Shown here piece after piece: positions 13,558 through 50,012 of a DNA stretch of 64,000 nucleotides (within the stretch, counting starts at the first letter, position 1; every line of letters begins with the position of its first letter). The translations under genes and the position numbers were made by a program. Under the pieces are notes generated by a model. The model saw only the letters and a program-made list of their open reading frames with translations. It did not search any database and was not told where the DNA came from. Source of the DNA: Acidobacteriota bacterium (GTDB taxonomy: Bacteria > Acidobacteriota > Vicinamibacteria > Vicinamibacterales > UBA2999); NCBI GenBank assembly GCA_016871195.1, contig VFZN01000001.1, forward strand, positions 124,001 to 188,000. Direction: 5' to 3'.

Positions 13558-16500
13558 TCAGAAGATGTGGCCGAAGCCGAGGTAGTAGCGACCCGACCCG
13601 ATCTGGTTGGCCCGGCGCCTCGAATTGGTCGGGGTCGTGGCCGGAATGCCAAAGTCGAGGCGCAGCAGACCAATCGGCGAGTTGAGCCGCACGCCGACGC
13701 CGTAGCCGAGGCTCAGGTCGCGCGTCGAGAACTGTGCGCGGTCAAACGCATTGCCGGCATCGACAAAGGCGAGCGCGCTCAGCCAGCGGCCCAGCGACAC
13801 CCGCGCCTCCTGGTTGACGACCAGCATCGAACGCCCGCCCGAGGGGCTGCCGTCGGGCCCGACCGGCCCGAGGCCGTTTTCCGCGTAGCCGCGCACCGTC
13901 GTGCCGCCGCCGGCGAAGAAGCGATCGACCGGCAGCAGATCGTCGGGACCGAAGCCTGTGCCCGCAAGGACACGCGCCGCCAGCACCACCGGCCCCCATG
14001 AACGGAAGCCTGACTGCTGCACGAACACCTTGCCGTAGCGGGCATCCGACCCGAGGCCGCGTGCGGCTTGCTCAAGGGACACCGACGAAAACGTGCCGCG
14101 TGTCGCGTTGACGGGACTGTCGCGGCGATCGATGAGCGCCGCTGCGGTCACCTGGCCCACCGTGGCTCGTTCATCCAGCGGAAAAAAATCGAGCGGCGAG
14201 GGCGACGGGTCGTACGTGTGGCTCGTCTCAATCCGATAGCCGTAGGTGACTTCCCAGCCGCGGCGACGCCGCCAGCGCTGCTCGAGACTGAGGCTCGCCG
14301 TATCGGTGATGCTGACGACATCGCCCTCGAACCGCATGCGTTCGCGCGACACGGCGCCGAACAGACCCGTGCGGACGGGCAAGCCCAGGAAGCTTGCGTT
14401 TTGCAGAAAGGTATTGGCGCGCTGATAGTCGCGCTCGATACGCGTGGCGACGCCGGCCGTCAGCGCACGCCCGAACACGTTCTGGTTGCGCAGTTCACCG
14501 ATGACGCCCACCGTCGTATCGACGCGCCCGGTTTCGCCGGCCACCTCGCGATCGCGATCGGCCTGTGCTCCGTATCGCAGGCGCCACGGTGCGTACTCTT
14601 CCACCGTCACCACGGCCATCACGGGCTGGTCGCCCCCCTCGGGGGTGCCGTCAGGTTCCGGCGAGATATCGACGGCACGGAAGACATTCGTGTCGAACAC
14701 GCGCTTGCGTGCCAGAGCCCACTCATCCAGATTGACCGGCTCGCCTTCGTGCAGGCGCAGCGCGCCACGCACAACCCCGTCGCGCGTACGGGCACTGCCG
14801 CGCGTGTCGACGCGACGCAGCACCTGCCGCAGACCTTCCGTCACCGTCAGGCTCACGTCGACGGTGCCCGGGCGGCCAGGGGCGGCAGCCACAGTCACCG
14901 ACACATCGTTGAAGCCCCGCTGCCGGTACTGCCGATCCACGCGATCGCGCGCGCGTCCGACGGCGGCCAGCGTGTAGGGGTCGCCGCTGCGCAGTTCGGC
15001 TGCATCAGTCATGTCTGCCAGGCGTGAGTCGTGCACGCCCGACCAGCGCACATCGCCCACCAGAGCGCGCGGCCCCTCGACGACATGCACCGGCAGCACC
15101 ACCCGGTCGGATTGCATCACCGGAGGATCGACCGCGACCGTGGCTGCGAGGTAACCGATGGACCGGTAGTACTGCTGCAGCGTTTGCGCCAGTTTCGAGC
15201 GGTCGGCCCACCCGTCCACGGCAAGACCCGCGCGCGTCACCACGTCTTCCAGCGCGTCACGGCCCACCCCGCCATTGCCGTCGTAGATGCGCTCGCGCCT
15301 GGCCGACACCGGACCGGGGGTCACGGTGACCCGTACGGTCTTCACCGGTCCTTCCACCACCATCGTGCCACTGACCTCGCCGGTCATCTGGCCGCGGGTC
15401 AGCAGCAGCCGTCGCACGCGCGCCTCGGCATCCTGCACCACAAACCGATCGAACACCGCCCGGCTCCACATGTCGTGCACATCGGTGACCAGCCGCGGCG
15501 GCACGGCCACGCCTTCCACCTCAAGCCGTGTTTCAGGACCGCGCGCGATGGCGTACGTCACCTCGACACGGCCATCCTCCCGCGTCTCACGCTCGCCGCG
15601 CACGCGGGCCTCGGCGTAGCCCTGCGCAATCAGCACACTGCGCAGCGCGTCGAGGTCACGCTGCCACTCATACGAGTCGAAGGGTCCACCCGTCACGAGT
15701 CGCACGCGGCGCCGCAACTCGCGCTCGCTGACAGGCGCGTAGTCGCCGGTGATCGCCACGCCGGCGACGCGCACCGTGGGGCGCGACAGCCGAACCGACG
15801 TCCGCTTCGTTCCACCAAACGTCACATCGTGCCGCACCCCTGCTCCCAGCGTGCCGTCGTCGCGCGAGATGGCGCGCACCTCGAGGGTCGGACGGGGATA
15901 GTAGCTGACCACGAATGTCGTCTTGCCGTTCTGCCGCAGGTTCTGCGAGAGCACAAACTCGACGGTGTCGCGCACGCGCTTCGAGAACGTGAGGCGTGTG
16001 ACCGGGTTGGCGTTGTCTTGGAAGAGCAGGCTGGGATCTTCACGGAACTCGTCGCGCACCACATCGCCGCGGTCGAGGCGCACGCTGTCGAACCCGATCT
16101 GCCGACCCGTCACACCCAACAGATCGCTCGACAGCAGTGTCAGGGCATTGCTGCCCGTCACGGCGCCGCCGAACAGCGCCGTGGCGATCTCTTCTTCGCT
16201 GCCGCCGTTCTCCGACTGCAGCTCGTACGAGAACCGCTGCGGCGTGCCCTGCAGTGTCAGGGTGACCGTGCCTTGCCCGGGCAGTCGAGTCTCGGCCTGC
16301 AGGTCGAGATCGGGTTCGATGCGCGACAGGTTGGTGAACGAGACCGTGCCGCGCACCAGCGTGAACGACCGTCCCGCCGCATAGAGCGTCCCGCCCTCGC
16401 GGATGGTCGCCCGCCCGCTGAGCCCCGGCTGTGCATAGGTGCCGACCAGGCGCACCTGCGCACCGGTGTCGACGCGGCCATAGTTGTTGTCGACGCGGAT

Positions 16501-19500
16501 GTCCTCGTCGGTCGTCACCGCAATGTCGAGGCGCATGCCGTCGATCAGCGTCGGCGCCGGCTGAACGCCGGAGGTTGACGCGGCACGCGACAGCGCCGCG
16601 AGACTGATCGGATCGGTGAAGCCGCTGCGCCTGATATGCACATCGCCCCGGGCGCTGAGGTCATACACATCGCCCCCGATGGCACGGACGGTCAACTGCG
16701 CATTGACCTCGCTCCGCAGACCCACCGGGTACTCGACCCCGATACCTCGACCCACCACTGTGACTTCTGCCTCCTGCAGGCCGCCACTGGTGACCACCGC
16801 CTGCCCGGTCAGGCTGACCTGGCCACCGTTGGCCTCGCCGCTGAGCCCGTCGAACGTCACGCGATTGCCCGCCAGCCGGATGGGACCGGTGACACCCGTG
16901 GCGACGAGGCGCGGTGACTGCAGCCCGAACTCCGCATTGCGCAGCGTGATGGTGCCCGCAAGGTCGGGCACGCGTGGTGTGCCGCCGACATAGACGGCCA
17001 CATCCGCCACGCCGTCCACCGAGACGTCGGGAAGCACCGCCGACAGCACGCGTATGATGGCGACGCCGCTGAGGTTGAGGTTGAGCGCCGGTTCCGCCGG
17101 CTGCAAATCGACGTTGCCTTCCAGATAGAGGCGCGTCGACAGCGCCTCCCACGCCACATCGTCCATCGACACGATGCCGCGCGTCAGCGACACGGTCGAG
17201 GGCCGCACCTGCGTCACGGCCACGCCGCCGGCATCGAAGGCGCCACGCTCGAGCACAAACTGCCCCGTGGCCTCGCGCGGGTCGAGGTTCGGCAGCCGCC
17301 CGCGACCCGTCACCGTGAAGGGTCCGCTGACACGCGCCACCTGCAACTGGCCGCTGATGCCGTCGACGCGGAACTCGTCGCCCTCGAGTGAGACGCGCAC
17401 GGCCAGGTTATCGACGAGCCTCTCGCCCTCTGCGCCCACGGTGCCGGCGTCAACGGCCATCGATACCCGCAGGTCTTCGGGGCGTGTGGTGGTTGCGAGC
17501 GAGGCCTGCAGGCGACCCGTCACGTCGACGGGAAGCTCGACTCCGAAGGCCTCTGCGGCCCGGGCGACATCCTGCACGGTGCCCTGATACCGGGCGGCCA
17601 GTACACCGCTGCCGCGTCCGGCCTGTGACCCTGAGACTGTGACGACACTCTGGCCGAGCGCGACCTGCAGGCCATCGACGGCCAGCACCTCAGGCGTCCA
17701 GGTCAGGCGCGCGGGCGCGCGGAGGGCGGCAGCGACACCATTGAGCTGCGCCTCGAGCGTACGTACGGTGAGGTCGGCCGTTGCCGCGGCCGGATCGTTC
17801 CACACACCGCTGGTGCGGGCCTCGAATGACACACGGCCCGTCAGCGCATTCGGCACGGCATCGACCAGCGGGGCCACGCGCCCGAGCGACAGGCGGTCGG
17901 CCACCATCGTGCCCGTGTAGGCATAGGGTGCCTCCAGCGACATGGCACCGTGCACCGAGGCGCCGAGCGCCGGCGCGTCGACATCGACGCGCGCCTCGCG
18001 GCCGTTGAGCGTGACCGTCGCCGAGCCTTCGCTCACCAGATCGCCCACCACACCCCCAGACAGGCGCAGCGTGAAGTGCCCGTGGCCCTGGGGCGCAGTC
18101 AGCGGACCATGACTCTCGAACGTGCCGTCCGCGATGACCTGCGACGGCACGTCCTCAATCAGAGCCCCCGTCCACGAGAGCCCCGACAGCCGTACCGACA
18201 GGTCGTGCGTGTCGTCCAGTCCGTAACGGCCGGTCGCATCGAGTGCACCGGTCCCCTGCTCGATGCGCAAGGCATCGAGCCACACATCTTCAGCGCGGAC
18301 ACGCACGGCACCGGTCGCCAGATGCAGCACCTCTCCGGCCAGCGTCAGATTCGAGGGCTGCACCGTAACGTCAATGGCCGGGGCCTCGAGCGTGCCGCCA
18401 ATCGTCGCCTCGGCCATCAGGGCGCCGCGCAGTCGCGACGATTCATCACGCCCGGTTTGCCATTCATCGAGCGTCGGTACGTCGATGCGCATGGTGCCGC
18501 GCAGTTGCTCGCGCCTCAGATCGACCTGCACCTCACCGGAGGCCACCGTCGATCCTCGCGACACCGACACCTGCTCGACGTCCATGCGCTGGCGGTCGGC
18601 CGTGAGCCGCGCCCTGACCTCGACATCGCCAAGCCCGGGCAGGCCAAGAGCCGGCGAGTAGGCATCGATCGCCACACGCGGCGACGCCATCCGGCCCGCC
18701 AGCGTGACTGCGGCCTGCAGCGTCCCCGAAGAGCCGCGCACCGCCGCCGGCACACGGTAACCCTGCGGCTGCAGCGACCGGTCGGCCCCGGCCAGCGACC
18801 GCACGCGCACCTGCGTCTGCCCCCCGAGCGTGCTGCGCATGACATCATCCCAATCGAACTGCCCCGCCAGGCGGCCATCCGCCGACACGCCATCCGCCTG
18901 CAGCGCATGTGCGATGGTGTAGCGGCCGTTCCGGATGTCGACGCGTGCACGCCCTGCCACCGGTGTCGTGCGGCGGCTCTGGAACCGGCGCGCCGTCGCC
19001 TCGAGCGCCAGACTCGGTTGCGCGCCCCCCACAAACAGCGCCTCACCGTCGAGACGTCCGGCCACCGGCAATACCGTCGTCTCGAAGATGCGCAGGAATA
19101 CCCGCGCATCCACATCACTGAATGTGGCGCGTGTGCGACTGCCGTCGTCGGACCCGGGGGGAATGTCCACATCGAGCGCCAGCTCGCCGCCGCTCTCCGG
19201 TGCCAGCACCAGCCGCGACAGCGTGATCCGGCCATCCGACGTGTACAGCAGCGAGCCGCCGGCCGTCAGTCGCGGTTCGTCACCCACGGCCAGTCGCGGG
19301 CTGTCGACGCGTCCGCTCGCTTCCGCCTCACTGAGCGGCCCGTACACCGCGCCCCGCACATCGGCCATGCCGTCGAGCGGAAACCCGAAGTCAATCCATC
19401 GGCCAAACGCGCCAGTGTCGAGCTGGCCGGCATACTGCAGGTCAAGCGCCGGGGCATCCAGCACACGGACAATGCGTCCGGTGAGACCGAAGCGGCCGAG

Positions 19501-20211
19501 CCGGGCATCCACAGGCACATCGAGCAGCGCGACCTCGTGCCGGTCGAACGCCACGCGCGCCACGAGCGGCGCCACGTCAAGCACGCGATCAGGCCAGCGC
19601 AGCTGGAGTCCGCGCGTCAGCGCCACGGGACCGCTGGCCCTGTCACTCCCGGCTCCCGGCGACGCCTCGAGCGCGATGGTCACACCATCGGCCGAGAACC
19701 GCTCGCCGCCCGGCACATCTTCCAGGACGAACCCAAGATCGCTGACATGCAGCCCGCGCACCGTCAGGGCCAGCGGGTCTTCAGATGGCGGCGTACCGTC
19801 TCCATCAGGCAGGTTGCTGACGCCTCCGGCATCGGTCGACAGCAACACCCGGGGGCTCTCGAGCGCGATATCCGACACCACCACCCGACCGAGGAAGACC
19901 GCCGGGGACAGATCCACAGTCACACGCCGTGCGGTGAGGAACGGCCGGTCCTCGCGTCCCGCCGTGGCCAGCTGCACGTCCGTCAGCGACACCGTCGCGG
20001 TCAGCAGGTTGTAGGTGAACGCGCCCGACTGCAGGGTCAGGCCGACTTCGCGGGCCAGCCAGTCGGTGACCCACGCCTGGGCGCGCGCCCGGGCCGGGGG
20101 CAGGTGCAGCAGAAGCAGCGCGAGGCCCAGCGCCGCCCCCACGGCCACGCCTGTCCCCGCCAGCCAGCGCCTGCCTCCCCTGAACACTCCCTGATTGTAC
20201 CCGTCGCCCAT
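13558..20211 (-). CDS. TamB-like protein fused to POTRA/Omp85 outer-membrane barrel
   Basis: About 2217 residues in one uninterrupted frame. Residues 1-45 hold a basic cytoplasmic end and one membrane anchor (GVAVGAALGLALLLLHL). Residues about 45-1460 are AsmA/TamB-type repetitive beta structure with the conserved TamB C-terminal block (FSKRVRDTVEFVLSQNLRQN). About 1470-1870 look like five POTRA repeats (FDSYEWQRDLDALRSVLIAQG and similar). About 1875-2217 are an Omp85 barrel with the loop-6 motif TVRGYAENG near residue 2107 and a terminal Phe (GHIF). In Proteobacteria TamB and TamA are separate inner- and outer-membrane proteins; here one chain would span the envelope. The role, lipid transport or barrel-protein assembly, is inferred. 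The start is ATG 20211; ATG 20241 is in frame but leaves only 21 bases to the divergent selenoprotein gene. Confidence 0.85.
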   Translation of the reverse strand: MGDGYNQGVFRGGRRWLAGTGVAVGAALGLALLLLHLPPARARAQAWVTDWLAREVGLTLQSGAFTYNLLTATVSLTDVQLATAGREDRPFLTARRVTVDLSPAVFLGRVVVSDIALESPRVLLSTDAGGVSNLPDGDGTPPSEDPLALTVRGLHVSDLGFVLEDVPGGERFSADGVTIALEASPGAGSDRASGPVALTRGLQLRWPDRVLDVAPLVARVAFDRHEVALLDVPVDARLGRFGLTGRIVRVLDAPALDLQYAGQLDTGAFGRWIDFGFPLDGMADVRGAVYGPLSEAEASGRVDSPRLAVGDEPRLTAGGSLLYTSDGRITLSRLVLAPESGGELALDVDIPPGSDDGSRTRATFSDVDARVFLRIFETTVLPVAGRLDGEALFVGGAQPSLALEATARRFQSRRTTPVAGRARVDIRNGRYTIAHALQADGVSADGRLAGQFDWDDVMRSTLGGQTQVRVRSLAGADRSLQPQGYRVPAAVRGSSGTLQAAVTLAGRMASPRVAIDAYSPALGLPGLGDVEVRARLTADRQRMDVEQVSVSRGSTVASGEVQVDLRREQLRGTMRIDVPTLDEWQTGRDESSRLRGALMAEATIGGTLEAPAIDVTVQPSNLTLAGEVLHLATGAVRVRAEDVWLDALRIEQGTGALDATGRYGLDDTHDLSVRLSGLSWTGALIEDVPSQVIADGTFESHGPLTAPQGHGHFTLRLSGGVVGDLVSEGSATVTLNGREARVDVDAPALGASVHGAMSLEAPYAYTGTMVADRLSLGRVAPLVDAVPNALTGRVSFEARTSGVWNDPAAATADLTVRTLEAQLNGVAAALRAPARLTWTPEVLAVDGLQVALGQSVVTVSGSQAGRGSGVLAARYQGTVQDVARAAEAFGVELPVDVTGRLQASLATTTRPEDLRVSMAVDAGTVGAEGERLVDNLAVRVSLEGDEFRVDGISGQLQVARVSGPFTVTGRGRLPNLDPREATGQFVLERGAFDAGGVAVTQVRPSTVSLTRGIVSMDDVAWEALSTRLYLEGNVDLQPAEPALNLNLSGVAIIRVLSAVLPDVSVDGVADVAVYVGGTPRVPDLAGTITLRNAEFGLQSPRLVATGVTGPIRLAGNRVTFDGLSGEANGGQVSLTGQAVVTSGGLQEAEVTVVGRGIGVEYPVGLRSEVNAQLTVRAIGGDVYDLSARGDVHIRRSGFTDPISLAALSRAASTSGVQPAPTLIDGMRLDIAVTTDEDIRVDNNYGRVDTGAQVRLVGTYAQPGLSGRATIREGGTLYAAGRSFTLVRGTVSFTNLSRIEPDLDLQAETRLPGQGTVTLTLQGTPQRFSYELQSENGGSEEEIATALFGGAVTGSNALTLLSSDLLGVTGRQIGFDSVRLDRGDVVRDEFREDPSLLFQDNANPVTRLTFSKRVRDTVEFVLSQNLRQNGKTTFVVSYYPRPTLEVRAISRDDGTLGAGVRHDVTFGGTKRTSVRLSRPTVRVAGVAITGDYAPVSERELRRRVRLVTGGPFDSYEWQRDLDALRSVLIAQGYAEARVRGERETREDGRVEVTYAIARGPETRLEVEGVAVPPRLVTDVHDMWSRAVFDRFVVQDAEARVRRLLLTRGQMTGEVSGTMVVEGPVKTVRVTVTPGPVSARRERIYDGNGGVGRDALEDVVTRAGLAVDGWADRSKLAQTLQQYYRSIGYLAATVAVDPPVMQSDRVVLPVHVVEGPRALVGDVRWSGVHDSRLADMTDAAELRSGDPYTLAAVGRARDRVDRQYRQRGFNDVSVTVAAAPGRPGTVDVSLTVTEGLRQVLRRVDTRGSARTRDGVVRGALRLHEGEPVNLDEWALARKRVFDTNVFRAVDISPEPDGTPEGGDQPVMAVVTVEEYAPWRLRYGAQADRDREVAGETGRVDTTVGVIGELRNQNVFGRALTAGVATRIERDYQRANTFLQNASFLGLPVRTGLFGAVSRERMRFEGDVVSITDTASLSLEQRWRRRRGWEVTYGYRIETSHTYDPSPSPLDFFPLDERATVGQVTAAALIDRRDSPVNATRGTFSSVSLEQAARGLGSDARYGKVFVQQSGFRSWGPVVLAARVLAGTGFGPDDLLPVDRFFAGGGTTVRGYAENGLGPVGPDGSPSGGRSMLVVNQEARVSLGRWLSALAFVDAGNAFDRAQFSTRDLSLGYGVGVRLNSPIGLLRLDFGIPATTPTNSRRRANQIGSGRYYLGFGHIF

Positions 20212-20235
20212 TTGGGAATGAGACCGCTCCTCTGG

Positions 20236-20241
20236 TAGCAT
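20236..20241 (+). promoter_or_regulatory. Candidate -10 box TAGCAT for the peroxiredoxin gene
   Basis: TAGCAT lies 21 bases before the start codon, leaving a short 5' leader that contains the strong Shine-Dalgarno GGAGGT at 20250-20255. No clear -35 is visible. Confidence 0.35.
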
Positions 20242-20262
20242 CGCGCGGTGGAGGTAACGTTC

Positions 20263-20808
20263 ATGCGCGTGAAGTCCGTGTTCGTCGGACTGGCAGCGGC
20301 GCTGGGTGTTCTGGTCGGAAGTGCCGGCCGCGCCGAGGCACAGACTGCCGAGCTCAAGGTGGGAGATGCCGCACCGGCATTCTCGCTGCCCGGCTCAGAC
20401 GGCAAGACCCACAGCCTTGCGGCCTCGAAGGGCAAGCGGGCGGTGGTGCTGGCCTGGTTCCCCAAAGCATTCACCGGTGGTTGAACGGCCGAATGCAAGT
20501 CGCTCCGTGAGAGCGGCGCACTCATCCGTCAATACAACGTTGACTACTACATGGTCAGCGTCGACAACCTCGAGGACAACACCAAGTTTGCCCAGATGCA
20601 CGAGGCCGACTATCCGATCCTGAGCGACGTCTCCAAGGCCATGGCCACGGCGTACGGCGTGCTCAGTCCGGCCGGGTTGGCCCGCCGCTGGACGTTCTAC
20701 ATCGCGCCCGACGGCAAGATCCTCCACATCGACAAGACCGTCGCGCCGGCCTCGTCCGGACCCGACATGGTGAAGAAGCTCGGCGAACTCAACATCGCCA
20801 AGCGGTAA
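20263..20808 (+). CDS. Exported selenocysteine-containing peroxiredoxin (TGA codon 74 read as Sec)
   Basis: The frame from ATG 20263 (GGAGGT seven bases upstream) runs to TAA 20806-20808 and is interrupted only by TGA at 20482-20484. Both sides are one thioredoxin-fold AhpC/TSA-type peroxiredoxin: signal peptide (1-26), KVGDAAPAFSLPGSDG, VVLAWFPKAFTGG-U-TAECKSLRES, YPILSDVSKAMATAYGV, WTFYIAPDGKILHID; 181 residues in total. The TGA sits exactly at the peroxidatic cysteine of the family (usually TPGCT), and Cys78, four residues on, could be a resolving cysteine. A 7-bp hairpin with a G-containing loop follows at SECIS distance. Peroxiredoxins are a known bacterial selenoprotein family, so selenocysteine is much more likely than a nonsense mutation. 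It would reduce peroxides in the periplasm, with an unknown electron donor. Normal calling would give a short N-terminal ORF and a separate downstream ORF. Confidence 0.88.
20499..20517 (+). promoter_or_regulatory. Bacterial SECIS-like hairpin
   Basis: The arms GTCGCTC (20499-20505) and GAGCGGC (20511-20517) pair over seven positions including one G-U, closing a five-base loop CGTGA with G in its second position. The loop begins 22 bases after the TGA, inside the 16-37 base range usual for bacterial SECIS elements. It lies within the coding sequence, as SelB-dependent recoding requires. Confidence 0.72.
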
Positions 20809-29513: not shown

Positions 29514-30743
29514 GTGCGTCGCCTGCTCTCACCTGTCGTCGCGCTCGCGGTCGTCGCCGCAGGCGCCTGCGGTGTGCTCGCACAGGCACCCGCCGCCACC
29601 GCCTACGACAACGTCCGCCTGATCGTGGGCGACGGACGGCCCGCCATCGAGAACGCCACGTTCGTCGTGAGCGGAGGACGCATCACGGCCGCTGGCCCCT
29701 CGGGCCGTGTGACCGTTCCAGCCGGCGCCGCCCGGGTGTCGCTGACCGGCAAGACCGTGATGCCCGCCATCATCGACACGCACGTGCATACCAGCACGAC
29801 GCGCGATGCCCTCGTGCGTGATCTGCAGCAGCGCGCTGCCTTCGGCATCAGCGCGGCGCTCAGCCTCGGCCTCGACAACACCCCAGCGACCTTCGACATC
29901 CGGGCACAGCGCACACCGGGCCTCGCGCGGCTCTTCACAGCCGGCCGCGGCATCACGATGCCCGAGCCGGGCCGCAGCGACGTGCCCTACTGGGTCACCA
30001 CCGCCGAGGAGGGCCGGAAGGCCGTGCAGGAGCAGGCGGCCCTCAAGGTCGACATCATCAAGATCTGGGTCGACGATCGCGACGGCAAGTACCGCAAGAT
30101 GCCGTCCGAGATCTACACCCCCGTCATCGCCGAGGCACACGGCCGCGGGCTGCGCGTCGCCGCGCACATCTTCAACCTCAGCGATGCCAAGGGCCTGCTC
30201 ACAGCCGGCATCGATGCCTTCGCACACGGCATCCGCGACACCGATGTCGATGATGAACTGATGGCACTGGTCAAGAGCCATCCACGGGTGGTGCTCATTC
30301 CCAACCTGCCCGATCGGGGCGTCGTCGCCGATTACAGCTGGTTGTCGGGACAGGTGCCCGCCGAAGAACTGACGCGCGTGCAGGCCGGGGCGACCAACCG
30401 TCCGCAGGCACAGGCGGCCTTCGGCATTCAGGCCCGCAATCTCAAGCGCCTCTCGGCCGCCGGCATGCCCATCGCGCTCGGAACCGATGGCAACACGCCC
30501 TGGGCGCCGCATGTGGAAATGGCCGACATGGTGGCGTCAGGGATGACGCCGATGCAGGTCATCACGGCGGCCACGAAGAACGGCGCGGCATTCCTGGCAC
30601 TCACCGACGCGGGCACACTCGAGGCAGGCAAGGCGGCCGACTTCCTCGTGCTCGATGCCAATCCGCTCGACGACATCACCAACACGCGAAAAATTTCAGC
30701 GGTGTACTTCGGCGGCATGGCTGTCGATCGATCACGCCGCTGA
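29514..30743 (+). CDS. Exported metal-dependent amidohydrolase
   Basis: A 409-residue amidohydrolase-superfamily protein with a signal peptide (about 1-23). Metal-site motifs: MPAIIDTHVH (first HxH), the Lys of VDIIKIWVDD, VAAHIFNL, AHGIRDTD and ALGTDGNTPW, ending with the composite beta-domain return GKAADFLVLDANPLDD. These place it among imidazolonepropionase- and prolidase-like exported amidohydrolases. The substrate, perhaps a peptide or cyclic amide, is unknown. The start is GTG directly after the stop of the small membrane gene. Confidence 0.83.
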   Translation: MRRLLSPVVALAVVAAGACGVLAQAPAATAYDNVRLIVGDGRPAIENATFVVSGGRITAAGPSGRVTVPAGAARVSLTGKTVMPAIIDTHVHTSTTRDALVRDLQQRAAFGISAALSLGLDNTPATFDIRAQRTPGLARLFTAGRGITMPEPGRSDVPYWVTTAEEGRKAVQEQAALKVDIIKIWVDDRDGKYRKMPSEIYTPVIAEAHGRGLRVAAHIFNLSDAKGLLTAGIDAFAHGIRDTDVDDELMALVKSHPRVVLIPNLPDRGVVADYSWLSGQVPAEELTRVQAGATNRPQAQAAFGIQARNLKRLSAAGMPIALGTDGNTPWAPHVEMADMVASGMTPMQVITAATKNGAAFLALTDAGTLEAGKAADFLVLDANPLDDITNTRKISAVYFGGMAVDRSRR

Positions 30744-48254: not shown

Positions 48255-50012
48255 CTAGGGCTTCGGCTGCAGAATCACGTAGGCCGGCAGGCCCACCGCA
48301 CTGAATCGCTTCATCAGGTCACTGGTCGGGGCCTCGTCCGGCTGCTCCGCCTGCACCTTCACCTTCACGTATCCCGACAGGGCCTGCGTCACCCCCGCGT
48401 CCACCAGGGTCGTCTTGTCCATGGTGAGGCAGTTCTTGCACCAAGTGGCCCACAGGTCAATCAGCACCGGCTTCTGCTCGCGCTCGGCAACCGCCAGGCC
48501 TTCTGACAGCGAGGCGTGCCAGCCGGCCTTCAGCTTCTCTTCCACGCTCGAGGCCACTGCCGCCGAGTCGACCCACTGGTTGGCAAACAATCCGTAGGCG
48601 AGATAGCCGTAGTACATCGCCGTCCCCAGAATCAGCACACCGAAGCCCTGCTTCACCCGCACCATCCATGGCCCGGGCTTGGGCAGTGCCGACAGCCCCG
48701 CACCGGCCAGCGGCCACGGCACGGCCATGCCGATACCGAGCACAAACGGCAGTGCCAGCGCGACCGTGGTGCCTGTCGCATACAGATTGCTGGCAAACAG
48801 CACCACCTGAACCACGACCGGAGCGACACAGGCCCCGGCCAGCAGCGCCGCCACCGCGCCCATCGTGAAGGCCAGCACGAAGGTGCCGCGGCTGGCACCG
48901 TTTCCGACCGATCCGGCAAAGCGCGAAAAATCGATCTCGAACACGTCGAACATGGCCAGCGACAGCAGCACGAACAGCACCGCGATGCCCAGGTTGAACC
49001 AGGGTGACGCATTCAGCGTGCCAAACGTAGAGGCGGTCAGCACCACGATGACCCCGAGCACGCCGTACACGGCCGCCATGGCCGCCCCGTAGGTCAGCCC
49101 CAGCAGGAACCCGCGGCGCCGTGACCCGGCCTGCGCGCCGGCACCGATGATGGCCAGATTGATGGGAATCATCGGCAGCACGCAGGGCGTCAGGTTGAGG
49201 GCCAGTCCGCCCAGAAACACGAGAAGCAGGATGGCCAGCGGTCCCTGGCCCTCGAACAGACCCCGCTGTGGCTCGCCCGACTCGGCCGCACGAATGAATG
49301 CGAGGAAGTCGTCCGTGCCCAAATAGCCGCCCGTCGTAGCGGCGACCGAAAACCGGTCCAGGGCCACGAGTCCCGCCCGCACATCATCGGCCCCGCCGGC
49401 CGGAGTGGTCGGTCGCGGGAGAGGGACCGCAGCCGCCCCGGGCACCTCGCCCGTCCCAAACGGAATCGCCGCGAACACCTCGGCATGCTGCGCGGTCACC
49501 TGCGTACCTGCGGGCATCACGGGTAGCGACCACGCTGCCTGCACCGTGCTCGGTGCGTAACACATCGTGTCGTCGCACGCCTGATACCGCAGCCGAACCG
49601 GAACAGTCACCACTCCGGCGGGGACACCCAAGGCCACCTCGACCACCACGCCGATGACAAAGCGCTGGTCGAACACCAGCAGCGGCTCGGGCAGCCCGGC
49701 CTGGACGAAGTCGACAGCCTTCGGAAATACCACCTCGGAGATCCGCACGCCGTCCGTGGCCTCGACGGTCAGTTCCGTCGGAATGAGCGAGGCATCCCGG
49801 GGACGGTTCGACTGCACATGGAAGCCATTAGGCAGGGCGACCTGCAGGGCCAGTCGGGCCTGGGGGCCGGCGATCACACCGTCGGTCGCCACCAGGGGCG
49901 TGACCTCTGCCGGAATCCGGCGCAGCTGCGCAGAGGCCTCCGCGGCACACAGCAGCCCAAGCACCCCGATGACGACCCGTCTCAGCAGTACCATTGTCAG
50001 TTGGAGACCCAT
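48255..50012 (-). CDS. dsbD: Thiol:disulfide interchange protein DsbD
   Basis: A 585-residue three-domain protein. A signal segment comes first, then a periplasmic alpha domain with the redox pair in YQACDDTMCYAPS (about 150), an eight-helix membrane beta domain with the key cysteines in LNLTPCVLPMIPI and LAGACVAPVVV, and a C-terminal thioredoxin-like gamma domain with WATWCKNC. It moves electrons from cytoplasmic thioredoxin to periplasmic thiol proteins. It is a plausible electron source for exported thiol or selenol enzymes such as the peroxiredoxin at 20263, but that link is an inference. A Shine-Dalgarno AGGAGG and TAGGAT precede the ATG. Confidence 0.9.
   Translation of the reverse strand: MGLQLTMVLLRRVVIGVLGLLCAAEASAQLRRIPAEVTPLVATDGVIAGPQARLALQVALPNGFHVQSNRPRDASLIPTELTVEATDGVRISEVVFPKAVDFVQAGLPEPLLVFDQRFVIGVVVEVALGVPAGVVTVPVRLRYQACDDTMCYAPSTVQAAWSLPVMPAGTQVTAQHAEVFAAIPFGTGEVPGAAAVPLPRPTTPAGGADDVRAGLVALDRFSVAATTGGYLGTDDFLAFIRAAESGEPQRGLFEGQGPLAILLLVFLGGLALNLTPCVLPMIPINLAIIGAGAQAGSRRRGFLLGLTYGAAMAAVYGVLGVIVVLTASTFGTLNASPWFNLGIAVLFVLLSLAMFDVFEIDFSRFAGSVGNGASRGTFVLAFTMGAVAALLAGACVAPVVVQVVLFASNLYATGTTVALALPFVLGIGMAVPWPLAGAGLSALPKPGPWMVRVKQGFGVLILGTAMYYGYLAYGLFANQWVDSAAVASSVEEKLKAGWHASLSEGLAVAEREQKPVLIDLWATWCKNCLTMDKTTLVDAGVTQALSGYVKVKVQAEQPDEAPTSDLMKRFSAVGLPAYVILQPKP

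Follow-up and report, generated by a model that had tools for sequence, protein, structure and literature searches.

Does the in-frame TGA at positions 20482-20484 end a short reading frame, or does it encode the selenocysteine (Sec) of a peroxiredoxin? The question concerns the locus at 20263-20808 (+ strand) of the window, i.e., the whole 64,000-nucleotide stretch of DNA analysed here. Judging from the sequence of this locus and of its homologues, it very probably encodes an exported Sec-peroxiredoxin whose UGA would be decoded under the guidance of an RNA hairpin, and for which we infer resolution by the cysteine C78 and a DsbD-fed reduction in the envelope.

Organization of the gene and conservation of the UGA codon

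The gene (20263-20808, + strand) encodes 181 amino acids when the TGA is read through, and ends at a TAA stop. A Shine-Dalgarno-like GGAGG is present at 20250-20254 (+ strand), 8 nt upstream of the ATG, in agreement with the ribosome-binding site proposed earlier, and similar motifs precede the start in most of the homologues. Translation reveals a single internal stop, the TGA at residue 74 (U74; 20482-20484, + strand), and the rest of the frame is intact. In the peptide P67-KAF-T71-GG-U74-TAE-C78, the TGA takes the place of the peroxidatic Cys, an assignment based on the codons of the homologues. One PF00578 (AhpC/TSA) domain spans both sides of it (residues 33-155, 7.8e-29; 100.6 bits against a cut-off of 26). 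Translation and domain match bear out the earlier note on this DNA, which had described an otherwise intact peroxiredoxin frame with a TGA exactly at the peroxidatic Cys codon. The note had also predicted that automatic annotation would split the gene, and ORF calling with table 11 indeed yields two pieces, of 78 aa (20248-20484) and 85 aa (20551-20808).

For the comparison of this codon, 80 homologues were retrieved from species genomes. The U74 codon is TGA in 56 of them and TGC or TGT in 24, with no other codon represented; an alignment with Cys-containing homologues, suggested beforehand as a check, thus places the Cys on the same codon as the TGA. A nonsense mutation in a pseudogene or a miscalled TGC/TGT is extremely improbable and was rejected: TGC/TGT homologues exist and a TGA seen in just a single genome might be erroneous, but that TGA is conserved across dozens of genomes, in 56 separately assembled homologues, with the frame intact downstream and an RNA hairpin under constraint.

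At the level of the phylum, the family was found in 62 of the 396 sampled genomes, and 46 of these carry the TGA form; mis-annotation is therefore probable for many antioxidant genes of acidobacterial MAGs. SelA is present in 43 of these 46 TGA-form genomes versus seven of the 16 Cys-only genomes (Fisher p = 8e-5). The three TGA-form genomes without SelA probably represent SelA gaps in the assemblies, because all three have SelB over the cut-off; SelA or SelB is present in 46/46 sampled acidobacterial TGA-form genomes. On the 81-sequence tree, whose root is not fixed, at least four changes between Sec and Cys are required, two of which are forced by well-supported branches. Five loci from genomes titled Cyanobacteria, Acidimicrobiia or Chloroflexi (L025, L026, L037, L057 and L086) have peroxiredoxins nested in acidobacterial clades of this tree; the titles of these MAGs may be wrong, or the genes may have been transferred.

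The RNA hairpin downstream of the UGA

A candidate bacterial SECIS (bSECIS) hairpin is located at 20499-20517 (+ strand). It consists of a 7-bp stem (20499-20505 paired with 20511-20517) closed by the 5-nt loop CGUGA (20506-20510), with a predicted folding energy of -11.0 kcal/mol and 21 nt between the UGA and the loop. The published bSECIS criteria are a stem of 4-16 bp, a loop of 3-9 nt with a G within its first two positions, a spacing of 16-37 nt from the UGA and an MFE <= -7.5 (PMC13188914), and the hairpin lies within all of these limits. The earlier note had let a stem-loop start 22 bases after the TGA. The hairpin does exist, but the 22nd base opens the loop and the stem already starts at 20499. 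As evidence for Sec, it had been over-read: on a single sequence it is not significant, because 298 of the 1641 TGAs of the window (18%) have a hairpin passing the same rules as coded in this analysis, and its use as proof by itself was dropped even though the bSECIS constraints are respected.

The decisive comparative signal is instead the conservation of the hairpin across homologues. Base pairing of the stem is kept in 99.4% of the cells, and not one of 500 shuffles attained its covariation score. In three pairs of the stem, both partners have changed in a compensatory way (basal pair, GC to CG or AU; middle pairs, GC to AU and CG to UA), with these double changes deriving from few lineages. 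In the Sec forms, synonymous diversity at codons 79-84 is 0.056 versus 0.428 gene-wide, i.e., ~8-fold lower, whereas the Cys forms have no matching drop at these codons. The mean hairpin energy is -10.9 kcal/mol in the Sec homologues compared to -4.8 kcal/mol in the Cys homologues. The TGA conserved in 56 independent loci and the conserved hairpin lie far beyond chance.

Selenocysteine machinery and predicted decoding of the UGA

The source genome comprises 3.08 Mb in 51 contigs and is 98.2% complete. A Sec-containing peroxiredoxin implies SelA, SelB, SelD and tRNA-Sec, the components on which the earlier claim had been made to depend, and all four were detected elsewhere in this genome. The protein matches reach 523 bits for SelA, 348 bits for SelB and 353 bits for SelD, and the tRNA-Sec, with anticodon TCA (62.4 bits), was called by both Rfam and ARAGORN. 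The SelD gene (locus L018, contig C1:281074-282000) shares its contig with the window, so that a binning error cannot account for the co-occurrence of SelD and the peroxiredoxin. SelD itself carries an in-frame UGA at its catalytic position (CAG-U-ASK), with a GC-rich hairpin downstream. A third selenoprotein candidate is a SelL-related redox protein (L106 757-1257, contig C12:13556-14056), which scores 137 bits against the NF040769 cut-off of 120 and has an in-frame TGA in LRHFG-U-TFC; the hairpin that follows this TGA is not a strong one when judged from a single sequence. A TGA-bridged frame at window position 30741 was rejected as a selenoprotein, this TGA being an ordinary stop between two genes. 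The Sec-containing formate dehydrogenase alpha subunit (FdhA) is the commonest bacterial selenoprotein; among the contigs of the source genome, no match to this subunit exceeded the cut-off of TIGR01553, the single model used.

From the frame alone, the inserted residue cannot be distinguished, and a standard amino acid such as Trp or Cys could be placed at the UGA through a code change or near-cognate readthrough. This is very unlikely, however, in a genome with the complete Sec machinery that also uses UGA as an ordinary stop (30741), in a family whose only alternative residue is Cys and whose SECIS hairpin is conserved in the TGA forms only. The UGA at 20482-20484 is almost certainly decoded as selenocysteine on this comparative evidence.

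Probable export and genomic neighbourhood

The N-terminus of the protein (~residues 1-27; 20263-20343, + strand) was recognized by sequence inspection as a putative signal peptide with probable cleavage after AEA, in a region of low model confidence. By eye, n-, h- and c-regions can be distinguished in this protein and in nearly all homologues. Since such signal-like N-termini occur in nearly all homologues of both the Sec and the Cys form, the whole family appears to be exported, which supports the envelope location proposed earlier. The candidate selenoenzyme would thereby be placed in the oxidising cell envelope.

Upstream, on the opposite strand, positions 13558-20241 (- strand) are occupied by a single ORF of 2227 aa that combines TamB (PF04357), POTRA repeats and an Omp85 barrel (PF01103) and is, by its predicted domains, a TamB-TamA type fusion. 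The two genes are divergent, with ~21 bp between their first possible starts. A similar divergent TamB-Omp85 gene adjoins the peroxiredoxin in 18 homologous loci, and gyrA/parC adjoins it in three; besides these, no recurrent neighbour and no conserved operon partner was found among the homologous loci.

Protein structure and proposed catalytic cycle

The AlphaFold model has a pLDDT of ~98 over the mature domain, low confidence being limited to ~residues 1-30, and its best matches among solved structures are Bcp1 (Foldseek, 3.6e-16), BcpB, Bcp4 and AhpE; the model thus has the thioredoxin-like Prx fold of the superfamily. The invariant positions of a 55-row alignment include P67, U/C74, E77, C78 and R142; T71 is conserved in >90%, and the PxxxT/SxxC(U) motif and the catalytic Arg (R142) that characterize the peroxiredoxin superfamily are kept. 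C78 (20494-20496, + strand), at +4 from U74 and in a helix that starts at residue 72 of the model, is the sole thiol besides U74 and is invariant in Sec and Cys forms alike. The earlier note had named it as a possible resolving Cys; the invariance of the residue supports this choice, and its role in resolution is likely. A Cys at +4 within one helix requires local unfolding to contact U74.

In the proposed cycle, SelB and tRNA-Sec would decode the UGA as selenocysteine, steered by the hairpin located just 3' of it. Once the protein has been exported and its signal peptide removed, the selenolate of U74 would attack a peroxide (H2O2, organic or lipid), and C78, four residues further in the same helix, would most likely resolve the resulting selenenic acid into a Se-S bond. 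A thioredoxin-like relay in the envelope, supplied with electrons by DsbD, would then probably reduce this bond. A DsbD-type protein (DsbD_N, transmembrane, thioredoxin-like) encoded at 48255-50012 (- strand) is a candidate envelope electron source, a link that we infer; no gene cluster tying the peroxiredoxin to DsbD or thioredoxin was found among the homologous loci.

The exported Sec protein could also act mainly as a thiol/selenol oxidoreductase, either 1-Cys/AhpE-like or in thiol-disulfide exchange, and not as a 2-Cys-type peroxidase resolved by C78. AhpE is indeed one of the best structural matches (TM 0.88 on target), the +4 spacing is unlike that of PrxQ, and C78 could be structural. 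The conserved PxxxTxxU motif with its catalytic Arg, and the invariance of C78 across Sec and Cys forms, argue against such a function, which we consider unlikely.

The exported, C78-resolved Sec-peroxiredoxin can tentatively be set in a wider context. It is possible, though we would not count on it, that it belongs to an unnamed exported clade centred on Acidobacteriota that runs a DsbD-fed U-xxx-C selenenylsulfide cycle in the envelope and is a main client keeping the Sec machinery in genomes that, like this one, have no Sec formate dehydrogenase over the cut-off. The advantage of Sec over Cys is resistance to over-oxidation, and the natural Sec/Cys pairs of this family provide a test bed for that advantage in the envelope.

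Comparison with known peroxiredoxins and selenoproteins

Sec-peroxiredoxins with a TxxU motif are an established bacterial selenoprotein family (PMC13188914, PMC1088965), as had been stated from the outset, and a 2026 review has a Prx entry among the selenoproteins (PMC13188914). Earlier surveys report 43 Sec-peroxiredoxin genes in the Sargasso data (PMC1088965) and Sec-peroxiredoxin in 78 organisms in 2016 (PMC5029168); the Prx counts of such surveys may already include relatives of the window gene. A literature search returned no paper on acidobacterial or envelope Sec-peroxiredoxins.

Like PrxU of Eubacterium acidaminophilum (Prx, COG1225/PF00578), the window protein carries Sec as the peroxidatic residue of a TxxU motif, and Sec-Prx of this kind also share with it a bacterial SECIS and the existence of Cys homologues (PMC13188914, PMC1088965). 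Unlike PrxU, it has a signal peptide and the invariant +4 Cys, and it scores 39.6 bits against the cut-off of 270 of the PrxU model (NCBIfam equivalog NF040737). No fitting NCBIfam model is over its cut-off (PRK09437, 68.5 bits versus 140; PerredPrxQDein, 60 versus 260).

The closest proteins in fold and sequence are those of the PrxQ/BCP group (Sulfolobus Bcp1, 3drn; Xanthomonas PrxQ), in which the resolving Cys commonly sits in helix 2, at +5. The second Cys is at +5 in PrxQ/Bcp 2ywn and in the cytosolic PrxQ of the same genome (L102 1501-1968, GCTKEAC), whereas it is at +4 in the window protein, which also differs from the group by its Sec and its export signal. AhpE of Mycobacterium tuberculosis shares the fold (TM 0.85-0.88 on target), but is of the 1-Cys type according to its PDB title, while the window protein has a second, invariant Cys. 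SelD and the SelL-related protein of the same genome resemble the peroxiredoxin in having an in-frame UGA at the redox Cys; they belong to other families and, unlike it, have no apparent signal peptide. On sequence grounds, the window gene is a newly described member of the Sec-peroxiredoxins, separated from the PrxU and PrxQ models by its exported location and its +4 Cys.
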